DNA of 41,988 bases from positions 1 through 41,988 of the IMG/VR virus record IMGVR_UViG_3300028590_000043; one strand, given 5' to 3'. Below are positions 37,144 through 39,894 of the stretch, piece after piece; positions within the stretch are counted from its first letter, which is position 1; each line of letters begins with the position of its first letter. Under the pieces are notes generated by a model, which searched no databases, had not been told where the DNA came from, and worked only from the letters and a program-made list of their open reading frames with translations. The translations under genes and the position numbers were made by a program. Origin of the DNA: a virus.

Positions 37144-37435
37144 ACTTCCCATCATCGCGAAACCGGAACGTCCGCTTATCGATCTGGCTATCCACATAGG
37201 CTTTGACGCCAGCCAGGATTTGCTCAGCCGTCGCGCTCAGCTCCAGCTCGATGAACTGCCCCGACGACTTGTCGAGAGTACGCGTGCGGTATCCGCCCTT
37301 AATGATGGCGTCGTACTTGCTCCGGGCGATGGCCTTGCCGTCCTTGCGGGGCCAAGCCTTCCAGACCGTCTCGAAGTCACCCTTGGGGGTTGCGACTGGC
37401 GCAGCTTCTGGAAACAGGCGAGCGACGTTGTTCAT
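37088..37435 (-). CDS. phage replication-type protein (O/DnaT-like C-terminal unit), 115 aa
   Basis: FETVWKAWPRKDGKAIARSK (about 21-40) and IPHFATWLGRAGWEDF (about 98-113) are the two ends of a domain usually found at the C-terminus of phage replication initiators and helicase loaders (FWxxYPRK...HPxTWLNxxRWED). Here it stands alone, without the DNA-binding winged helix. It is the only replication-like gene in the window. ATGA overlap with the GcrA-like gene. Confidence 0.7.
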   Translation of the reverse strand: MNNVARLFPEAAPVATPKGDFETVWKAWPRKDGKAIARSKYDAIIKGGYRTRTLDKSSGQFIELELSATAEQILAGVKAYVDSQIDKRTFRFRDDGKFIPHFATWLGRAGWEDFL

Positions 37436-38022
37436 GCTGCGATCCTCTGAAGTCCCTCGGAAACCCGGATTTCATCCACAAACGCCACCAGATCCTTGTA
37501 GGTCAGCAGGCAGGGCCGGCCGCGCCCTATCAGGTAGAGCTTGCCCTGCCTGTAGGTCGTCTCGTAGCCTCGCGCGTGCAGGTAGCTGCGCATCGCCATT
37601 TCGTCCCCGCTGGCGCCTCTCTCGAACCGCCGAGGACCATTCATTGCCAGCCAGCCCTGCACTAGCTCGGCATCACTGGCGCCGGTGTCTGGCTGATAGA
37701 CGACACGGCGGGGAACGATCACCTTCTTGGCGCGCCTCGGCAGCGCTGGCTTGCGAACCTTGGGATGCTTGGGGGCATTGGCGCGGCGCTGGCGCTGTAG
37801 CTCATTCCGGCGGGCTCTCGCTTCGCCAGGCTCAAGCCGGGGCAGTATCGGGCTCCTACGGTGATCGAGGCCAAGACGGCTCGCCTTCCCAATAATGGAA
37901 TTGCGTGTCAGACCGCCGCCCATCATTGCGGCGATCTTGGAAGCTGGCGCTCCACTAGCCCAATGTACGCGTAGTTCGTCCTCTAGTTCTGGTGTCCAGT
38001 TCGATGCCCCTGCGGTTCTCAT
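37432..38022 (-). CDS. GcrA-like cell-cycle regulator with C-terminal extension, 196 aa
   Basis: Residues 8-58 match the GcrA N-terminal helix-turn-helix: NWTPELEDELRVHWASGAPA, then SKIAAMMGGGLTRNSIIGKA and SRLGL. In Caulobacter and relatives GcrA binds DNA together with sigma-70 at promoters controlled by CcrM methylation. Most phage-borne GcrA forms are short; here an Arg/Lys/Pro-rich linker leads to a separate domain (about 125-196, RRFERGASGDEMAMRSYLHA, then YETTYRQGKLYLIGRGRPCL) that I do not recognise. AAAGGAGG precedes ATG 38022. Confidence 0.82.
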   Translation of the reverse strand: MRTAGASNWTPELEDELRVHWASGAPASKIAAMMGGGLTRNSIIGKASRLGLDHRRSPILPRLEPGEARARRNELQRQRRANAPKHPKVRKPALPRRAKKVIVPRRVVYQPDTGASDAELVQGWLAMNGPRRFERGASGDEMAMRSYLHARGYETTYRQGKLYLIGRGRPCLLTYKDLVAFVDEIRVSEGLQRIAA

Positions 38023-38486: not shown

Positions 38487-39563
38487 TTAGGCGGCTAGTT
38501 CGGTATCAAGGTAGGCGCCGATCACTTCCGCGGCGACTTGCGGAACGATGGCATTGCCGTAGGCGCGCAGCTTTCCCACTCGGGCGGGAACCCCATGAGC
38601 CAGCAGACGAATGCCGGGTTCAACGCGCCGGGCTTTTCCGTCGACGCCTGCGAGCCATTCTGCTCCGACCCAAGCGCTGCCGCGCGAATTGCTACCAGTC
38701 CAGCTGAGTTGCCCGCTTCGTTGTTCCCGTCCTTCGCTTTCGCTAGGGAGGTCGGAGTGGGCCAGAGGGCTCCGTGGGCTCTGCCGGCCGAAGTCAGCGT
38801 ATCGAGCGCGATAGTTCCGTCTGGCCGCTTGTGGCCACCCGTCTGTTCCGAGTCCTCTGCTCGAGGCGTCGGCCAGAACGCCATCGCCGCGGCTGCTGGG
38901 AGCGCCATGCCGGTTTTCGATCGCGTCGCCTTGGCGAAGTCCGGCCCCGCTTCCGAGGCCCTGGGGGTCGGCCACAGCGCTCGCGCGATCATCTGAGGCA
39001 ACGGAACGCCCGTGTCGTGCGGTCGGATCGTCAGCCCCCGCGAATGATCCATTGCGGTCGGCGTCGGCCACAAACCAGAGGCGGTCTCGTCTATGGGGCG
39101 CATCGACGGCACAAGCCGGGACAACTGCCGCCCCAACGGCGTAGCCGATGCCTTCCAAGTCAGAATGCACTCCGTCGAGCCAATGCTTTCCAACCGCTGC
39201 CGCAACCTGTTCTCCCATGACGACTGCGGGATTGACGGCTCGGATGAGGTCGAAGAAAATCGGCCAGAGGTGCCTTTCGTCCGCTTGGCCTTTACCGGCG
39301 CCGGCAACACTGAACGGCTGGCAGGGGCAACTTCCGGTCCAGAGGGCGCGACCATCAGGCCATCCAGCCAGTCGAGCAGCGTAGGACCATCCTCCGATGC
39401 CTGCGAAGAAGTGGCATTGGGTGTAGCCCTTGAGGTCGTCCGGTCGGACATCGAAAATGCTCCGTTCATCGACATCGCCAGGCGCGATGTGGCCGGCGGA
39501 AATCAGGTTGCGGAGCCAAGCGGCGGCATAGGCGTCGATTTCGTTGTAATAGGCCCGGGCCAT
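38487..39563 (-). CDS. DNA cytosine-C5 methyltransferase, 358 aa
   Basis: All key motifs are present: I FFAGIGGWSYA (52-62), IV with the catalytic Cys81 in GSCPCQPFSVAGAGKG, VI as GEQV (117-120, in place of the usual ENV), VIII APHRRDRLWFVA (155-166) and X YGNAIVPQVAAEVI near the end. The variable region (about 167-300) is low-complexity with repeated (V/L)AD and Gly/Arg/Ser stretches. It would methylate phage or host DNA to escape restriction or alter gene control. AAGGAG lies eight bases before ATG 39563. A second long frame (38522-39475) is nested inside. Confidence 0.9.
   Translation of the reverse strand: MARAYYNEIDAYAAAWLRNLISAGHIAPGDVDERSIFDVRPDDLKGYTQCHFFAGIGGWSYAARLAGWPDGRALWTGSCPCQPFSVAGAGKGQADERHLWPIFFDLIRAVNPAVVMGEQVAAAVGKHWLDGVHSDLEGIGYAVGAAVVPACAVDAPHRRDRLWFVADADRNGSFAGADDPTARHGRSVASDDRASAVADPQGLGSGAGLRQGDAIENRHGAPSSRGDGVLADASSRGLGTDGWPQAARRNYRARYADFGRQSPRSPLAHSDLPSESEGREQRSGQLSWTGSNSRGSAWVGAEWLAGVDGKARRVEPGIRLLAHGVPARVGKLRAYGNAIVPQVAAEVIGAYLDTELAA
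38522..39475 (-). CDS. nested 317-codon overlapping frame (WPTP-repeat protein type)
   Basis: Wholly inside the methyltransferase gene on the same strand in another frame. It is open for 317 codons and reads like a known phage protein type: ENRLRQRLESIGSTECILTW, four WPTP units each followed by a polar spacer (as in LWPTPTAMDHSRGL), LNPAFVCWLMGFPPEWESC and a basic end SFRKSPRK. The motifs correspond base for base to the methyltransferase: VADAD is encoded where this frame says WPTPT, and YGNAIVPQ where it says TAMPSFRK. It is either a true overprinted gene or a constrained shadow. No ribosome site is evident before ATG 39475. Confidence 0.35.
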   Translation of the reverse strand: MSMNGAFSMSDRTTSRATPNATSSQASEDGPTLLDWLDGLMVAPSGPEVAPASRSVLPAPVKAKRTKGTSGRFSSTSSEPSIPQSSWENRLRQRLESIGSTECILTWKASATPLGRQLSRLVPSMRPIDETASGLWPTPTAMDHSRGLTIRPHDTGVPLPQMIARALWPTPRASEAGPDFAKATRSKTGMALPAAAAMAFWPTPRAEDSEQTGGHKRPDGTIALDTLTSAGRAHGALWPTPTSLAKAKDGNNEAGNSAGLVAIRAAALGSEQNGSQASTEKPGALNPAFVCWLMGFPPEWESCAPTAMPSFRKSPRK

Positions 39564-39591: not shown

Positions 39592-39894
39592 TCAAACGCC
39601 TTCGGGGTCGGGAAAGACAACCGCCCCTGCGCTCGCTTCTTCAGCGATAGGCGGCACGGGACGCAGCACGATCATGGTGCTGTCGTCGTTCTCTTCGGAC
39701 CTGCCGTAGGCGGTATGGATGACGTGCTGCTTGTGACGGACCCAGCCGCCGCGGCACTCGTAGAAGCTGCCCTTGAGGATGCTCAGGGAGCGAGAGCCGT
39801 CATGTAGCTTGCCGAGAATGGCCTTCTCGGTATCGCTCTGCGGCGTGAGCACGATCTGCTCAAGGCCGTCTTCGATGTAGAGCGCGATCTTCAT
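39592..39894 (-). CDS. phage hypothetical protein, 100 aa
   Basis: A beta-rich early-region protein: MKIALYIEDGLEQIVLTPQS, then EKAILGKLHDGSRSLSILKG, a Gly/Trp turn and a variable end. The ALYIEDG...QIVLTP start recurs in rhizobial phage proteins. Role unknown. Start overlaps the previous stop (ATGA). Confidence 0.7.
   Translation of the reverse strand: MKIALYIEDGLEQIVLTPQSDTEKAILGKLHDGSRSLSILKGSFYECRGGWVRHKQHVIHTAYGRSEENDDSTMIVLRPVPPIAEEASAGAVVFPDPEGV

Follow-up and report, generated by a model that had tools for sequence, protein, structure and literature searches.

Two overlapping frames in a methyltransferase locus

The window, i.e., the whole 41,988-nt stretch of viral DNA that was analysed (IMG/VR record IMGVR_UViG_3300028590_000043), carries on its minus strand two long open frames: a C5-cytosine DNA methyltransferase gene (alpha) and, nested within it in the +1 frame, a second open reading frame (beta; Table 1). 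As proposed in a preliminary description made from the sequence alone, motifs I, IV, VIII and X of alpha are intact, and motif VI was located as well. Alpha matched PF00145 (E = 1.2e-16; 61.5 bits, cutoff 22) and phrog_363 (E = 8e-80), and it matches HhaI both by profile and by model fold. Its ATG is preceded by a strong Shine-Dalgarno sequence, AGAAAGGAG, while an in-frame TTG at 39620 is an alternative upstream start.

Beta had been described as a nested frame with WPTP repeats, and four such units were located in it, at residues 136, 168, 201 and 238. The correspondence noticed between the two frames also holds: the bases for VADAD in alpha spell WPTPT in the next frame, and those for YGNAIVP overlap TAMPSF. 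Beta matched phrog_1008 (E = 9.5e-36) over model positions 37-286 of 329, that is, most of the family model. Both phrog_1008 and phrog_31772 were matched by beta and by all 72 aligned relatives; each is described as "DNA methyltransferase", a description silent on being the overlapping frame of the phrog_363/phrog_116 methyltransferase family. In Pfam, no model matching beta was found. Within the N-terminal helix-hairpin element of beta, residues L91, G99, W107, K108, P113 and G115 are at least 90% conserved across the family.

Close downstream of the methyltransferase and in the same direction, the window encodes a GcrA cell-cycle-regulator-like protein (37432-38022, minus strand; PF07750, E = 2.5e-12), which points to an alphaproteobacterial host.

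Table 1. Features of the alpha and beta frames in the window
Feature	Position	Strand	Remarks
Alpha: C5-cytosine DNA methyltransferase, proposed catalytic subunit	38487..39563	minus	358 aa from ATG
Alpha motif I	39390-39410	minus	from sequence; folded, pLDDT mostly above 80
Alpha motif IV (PCQ)	39312-39335	minus	from sequence; folded, pLDDT mostly above 80
Alpha motif VI	39204-39215	minus	from sequence; folded, pLDDT mostly above 80
Alpha motif VIII	39063-39095	minus	from sequence; folded, pLDDT mostly above 80
Alpha motif X (YGNAIVPQ)	38538..38561	minus	from sequence; C-terminal helix pLDDT above 90
Beta: +1-frame ORF, proposed recognition subunit	38522..39475	minus	317 codons
Probable beta initiation region (GGAG 39460-39463, ATG 39449-39451)	39449..39463	minus	inside alpha codons E-R-S-I-F-D-V
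Beta helix and two-strand hairpin (SWENRLRQRLESIG...CILTWKAS...LSRLVPSM)	39101..39220	minus	conserved N-terminal element; AlphaFold2 pLDDT about 70-89
Beta WPTP module 1 (WPTPTAMDHSRGLTIRPHDTGVPLPQMIARAL)	38975..39070	minus	alpha frame there reads VADADRNG...
Beta WPTP module 2 (WPTPRASEAGPDFAKATRSKTGMALPAAAAMAF)	38876..38974	minus	
Beta WPTP module 3 (WPTPRAEDSEQTGGHKRPDG...)	38765..38875	minus	
Beta WPTP module 4 (WPTPTSLAKAKDGNNEAGNSAG...)	38624..38764	minus	
Beta motif IX (LNPAFVCWLMGFPPEW)	38576..38623	minus	near-invariant in family; AlphaFold2 helix pLDDT about 77-82

A probable internal start for beta

The frame is indeed 317 codons long, as first stated, but its product is probably shorter: a GGAG lies 8 nt ahead of the third beta ATG (39451), and this ATG, judged from the sequence, is the probable start, which would give a protein of about 309 aa. 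The ATG at this site is kept in 68 of 100 relatives, and an ATG or GTG with a Shine-Dalgarno match was present in 108 of 115 beta ORFs. Moreover, the arginine codon that completes the beta Shine-Dalgarno sequence is AGG in 24% of cases among the relatives, versus 7.7% elsewhere (Fisher p = 8e-7). The kept ATG together with the Shine-Dalgarno and AGG enrichment thus favours independent initiation of beta over frameshifting.

Distribution of the overlap

A tblastn search with beta yielded 190 phage records and 10 plasmids, and two scans of viral contigs, one anchored on beta and one on alpha, yielded 154 loci; all 74 loci found through alpha also carried beta-family sequence at +1. Scanning genomes with a diverse alignment of beta sequences yielded 80 loci in Bacillota, Spirochaetota, Actinomycetota, Bacteroidota, Acidobacteriota, Planctomycetota, Nitrospirota, Elusimicrobiota, Pseudomonadota and others. 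The collection from phages and bacterial genomes comprises 247 alpha-beta pairs, and 246 of them have beta overlapping alpha at +1, among them all 79 pairs from genomes of many phyla. The sole exception is Babsiella, where beta scored in the same ORF as alpha; in none of the 247 pairs was beta found in +2 or as a separate gene. Presence of alpha and beta was judged by profile and regular expressions, and close relatives weigh on some of the counts. The possibility raised at the outset, that this is a widespread overprinted gene pair, is thereby upheld, and the search for a beta homologue away from a methyltransferase frame returned none among the fetched loci.

Two further features were seen in subsets of these loci. 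In L171-L250 the GC content of the overlap is above that of the flanks (mean 0.549 vs 0.487), as expected if stops must be avoided in two frames. In L063, L067, L068, L069 and L074, alpha and beta shift frame together in mid-gene, as after a single-base indel; decay, an assembly error and a phase-variable switch are the alternatives.

Purifying selection on beta

In the window alone, the open +1 frame was not significant against synonymous-codon shuffles (p = 0.076; GC 0.64), and the significance of beta therefore comes from its relatives. In 125 loci, with about 35,300 codons in the beta region, only 31 stops were found in beta, compared with 1,445 in the third frame and five in alpha, all five in L077 and past the end of alpha; stops in the nested frame of many relatives, which would have refuted overprinting, are thus absent. 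Even in genome loci whose flanks have a GC content of 32-40%, beta is open for about 190-310 codons, and the third frame has 11-29 stops. Codon permutation of 115 non-redundant genes gave p < 0.05 in 90% at +1 and in 4% at +2 (the combined p carries no correction for relatedness).

Four-class substitution rates from 26 independent pairs gave a dNN/dNS of 0.44 (0.30-0.57) and a dSN/dSS of 0.39 for beta, and a dNN/dSN of 0.38 for alpha. Three controls were computed: i) the third frame (1.35); ii) simulated alpha-only evolution (0.86-0.99); iii) the +1 frame of 15 flanking gene pairs (0.79; 0.66-0.88). The last indicates that the neutral baseline lies somewhat below 1, yet beta is still clearly lower. 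The test suggested earlier, i.e., synonymous versus nonsynonymous change in each frame separately, thus gives a beta value below all three controls, which is not neutral-like. On this comparative evidence it is beyond doubt that beta is a real coding frame under purifying selection, its expression being inferred.

Selection switches frame along the gene

The frame under constraint changes along the gene. Upstream of motif IV, constraint is strong on alpha (0.13) and weak or absent on beta (dNN/dNS 0.84, CI 0.62-1.17); from motif IV to VIII the values are 0.19 for alpha and 0.45 for beta, the range for alpha over motifs I-VIII being 0.12-0.19. Between motifs VIII and IX alpha is nearly neutral (0.68-0.85) and beta constrained (0.36-0.44), and from IX to X both stand at about 0.3. 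At IX alpha retains, in its own frame, a loosely motif-IX-like P...G.P pattern, and alpha is constrained there too. Codon positions give the same division: in the catalytic region substitutions fall mostly at position 3 of alpha codons, and in the WPTP modules 11,898 fall at position 3 of beta codons versus 3,920 and 3,313 at the other two. Judged by these substitution patterns, the constrained reading of the variable region between VIII and IX is beta, not alpha.

In the AlphaFold2 model of alpha, residues 1-172 and 328-357 are folded, while the variable region (residues about 173-321) has pLDDT mostly below about 50, so that the chain has no folded small domain. The conjecture that the low-complexity region of the enzyme looks as it does because it serves two frames was therefore right in essence, alpha being nearly neutral and predicted disordered there and beta constrained.

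WPTP modules are conserved in beta and shared between loci

Among 111 distinct modules, compared in one pair each, median identity was 0.72 for DNA, 0.79 for beta, 0.40 for alpha and 0.42 for the third frame; beta identity exceeded alpha identity in 105 of the 111 (p = 2e-24). For example, WPTPRASEAGPDFAKATRSKTGMALPAVAALSM is identical in L001 and L004 at 76% DNA and 30% alpha identity. As for the window, module 2 is 88% identical to modules of L001 and L004 (alpha frame 42-52%) and module 4 is 98% identical in L003/L082 (alpha 70%); for module 3 there was no matching module among the fetched loci.

The number of WPTP-type starts per beta ranges from 1 to 8, and the same types of module turn up in distant hosts and at differing positions: the WATPNTMDHxxQRS...RPANLREQV module, for example, occurs in Paenibacillus, Treponema, Roseburia and a Neomarinimicrobiota MAG. 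From their position, repetition and exchange, without target-binding data, we infer that the WPTP modules are exchangeable target-recognition cassettes; they have a low-complexity look and no resemblance to known TRD folds.

Motif IX lies in beta

The LNPxFVxWLMGFPxxW segment of beta (LNPxxVxWLMGFPxxW) is, as read from its sequence, motif IX. In five staggered relatives, L077, L163 (Streptomyces phage Samy), L168 (Gordonia phage Float294), L179 and L188, alpha ends after motif VIII and beta runs on, without a change of frame, through motif IX and as far as a motif X of GNxVVP type. In mycobacteriophages PCQ, LPTP modules, a IX-like segment and motif X all stand in a single ORF, and single-chain methyltransferases are matched in frame by the beta profile (E = 1e-7 to 5e-13 in L162, L164 and L170; a weaker 2e-5 in L165). 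Sequence comparison thus establishes that beta is a selected coding frame with motif IX in it, and that single-chain mycobacteriophage enzymes have this region as in-frame sequence flanked by motifs VIII and X. Beta therefore takes the position of the small domain (TRD plus IX).

L162, L164, L165 and L170 (mycobacteriophages and a Gordonia phage) have a further LPTP-bearing +1 ORF earlier in the gene, without motif IX; such a gene is apparently a frame-merged form with a leftover overlap. In L160 (2300-3367) and L005, motif IX occurs twice in tandem within one gene, which suggests a duplication of the recognition end.

Structure prediction gave less for beta. Modelled alone by AlphaFold2, it was poor (pLDDT 57, pTM 0.26), with only the helix-hairpin (84-124) and the motif IX helices confident; the beta profile retrieved no PDB sequence, and Foldseek, run on this weak model, gave only chance matches and no confident fold. 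Thus the recognition role rests on position, conservation and homology.

A proposed split, heterodimeric methyltransferase

We propose that alpha and beta are the two subunits of one split, heterodimeric C5-cytosine DNA methyltransferase resembling M.EcoHK31I, a reading to which we assign a probability of about 0.86 in the absence of expression or biochemical data. Alpha would be the large domain, which holds motifs I-VIII and X and is responsible for catalysis. Beta would be made separately, by initiation at the internal start of the +1 frame, and would form the small domain, made up of the N-terminal helix-hairpin, the tandem exchangeable WPTP recognition cassettes and motif IX, and the two may assemble after translation into the active enzyme. 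The enzyme would probably protect phage DNA against host restriction, anti-restriction being the usual role of phage methyltransferases. Translation of beta, the heterodimer, the reading of DNA targets by the modules and the anti-restriction role are all inferred. Points that count against the proposal are the poor model of beta, its weak constraint ahead of motif IV, the motif-IX-like pattern that alpha retains, the low-complexity look of the WPTP modules and the assignment of the M.EcoHK31I TRD to the larger subunit.

Three other explanations were weighed. The first is programmed frameshifting, in which one full chain would arise because the ribosome leaves alpha for beta past motif VIII and possibly returns to alpha ahead of X. 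It would account for the lack of a folded small domain in alpha and for the mycobacteriophage single chains that hold a beta-type region in frame, but beta is open from far upstream of motif VIII, where it has a conserved internal ATG and a Shine-Dalgarno sequence under selection, and it is constrained from motif IV on, which a slip after VIII does not need. Moreover, the nested form would require two opposite slips to reach X (a slippery site was not systematically sought). We therefore hold frameshifting to be very improbable.

The second, to which we give just as little credence, sees in beta an independent overprinted protein whose role is to regulate or counter the methyltransferase, or whose target is something else, for example a host defence. 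Overprinted phage genes are often accessory, and beta has a basic C-terminus and no annotated domain; an accessory protein, however, would be expected sometimes without alpha. Besides, motif IX stands at its expected place in beta and is followed in frame by motif X in the five staggered loci, and in mycobacteriophages the same region is part of the enzyme chain. Of the two roles first suggested for the second protein, partnering the enzyme fits and countering it does not, since motif IX and the target-recognition position of the enzyme itself are both in beta.

The weakest, with hardly any chance of being right, holds that beta is nothing more than what a conserved methyltransferase gene in GC-rich DNA happens to spell out of frame, phrog_1008 being an artefact family: although beta was always at +1 and never away from an alpha gene in the fetched loci, the window alone is not significant and conserved alpha motifs force some beta residues (e.g., VADAD gives WPTPT), this reading was rejected on the stop counts (beta open at flank GC 0.32-0.40 despite the stops in the third frame), codon permutation, the four-class rates with their three controls and the module identities (100% in beta at 30% in alpha, with beta conserved more than alpha across the variable region). 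The earlier choice between an overprinted pair and a frame shadow is thus settled for the pair by selection in both frames, avoidance of stops at low GC, conservation of modules in beta only and the extension of beta past the end of alpha in five loci.

Comparison with known systems

In EcoHK31I the beta gene lies inside the alpha gene in a different frame, and the window is alike in this feature, its beta lying in an alternative frame inside alpha. M.EcoHK31I needs two polypeptides: motifs I-VIII, motif X and a predicted TRD belong to the larger one, and the smaller one has only IX (Lee et al. 1995, cited in PMC3404938). The window alpha likewise has I-VIII and X, with motif IX on the second polypeptide. 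On the other hand, M.EcoHK31I has its predicted TRD in the larger subunit, whereas here the VIII-IX constraint and the shared modules are in beta; it also belongs to a restriction-modification system, whereas the window gene is a phage gene. Because the TRD placement differs and there is no sequence comparison, membership in the EcoHK31I family is not claimed.

M.AquI consists of two polypeptides forming one C5 enzyme, split after motif VIII (PMC3404938). The five staggered relatives, with IX and X both on the second polypeptide, resemble it; the window does not, as its motif X is in alpha rather than beta and the genes are nested. The C5-methyltransferases of Bacillus phages (SPR, H2 and others) carry tandem TRDs with several specificities (PMC8936443), and WPTP modules are similarly tandem and variable in number and position, but those enzymes are one chain in one frame (target binding by WPTP modules being inferred here). 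In ShiLan-type phage methylases an out-of-frame HNH is a mobile homing endonuclease insertion (PMC11855218), likewise a hidden frame in a phage methylase gene but not part of the enzyme. L151 (2601-4115) contains a long insertion open in both frames, HNH-endonuclease-like by eye in the beta frame (CEVTGLPF...SLDRI...NIRVVCHAVN) and without a Pfam match, which is to be compared with that HNH. No description of the overlap as a phage-wide feature was found in the literature searched, most subscription papers being outside the search.

Implications

Beyond the single locus, we think it likely, with clearly less assurance than for the heterodimer itself, that this is a very widespread class of phage and prophage C5-methyltransferases with catalysis in one frame and specificity in +1 as shuffled WPTP cassettes; alpha would then be largely a passenger in its variable region, and only the other frame would reveal the specificity.

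If the proposed split enzyme is true, half of it is missing from records in which the gene is named as a one-chain methyltransferase, and in some records that other half is all that is annotated. In Cy-LDV1, phiKX1 and R6L the beta-frame ORF is annotated and no full alpha gene is. The records of L155, L156 and L157 show the beta-frame ORF, called methyltransferase or hypothetical protein, without a full alpha, even though the alpha frame is open.

Furthermore, alpha cloned alone would be inactive, and any prediction of target specificity would need to start from the beta frame, with the shared WPTP cassettes as a code to be deciphered against methylome data. The pair would also be a long same-strand overlap of ancient origin, spanning about 200-500 codons and present in many phyla, with selection split between frames, and it would offer a natural model for the evolution of overlapping genes and of frame-split subunits.
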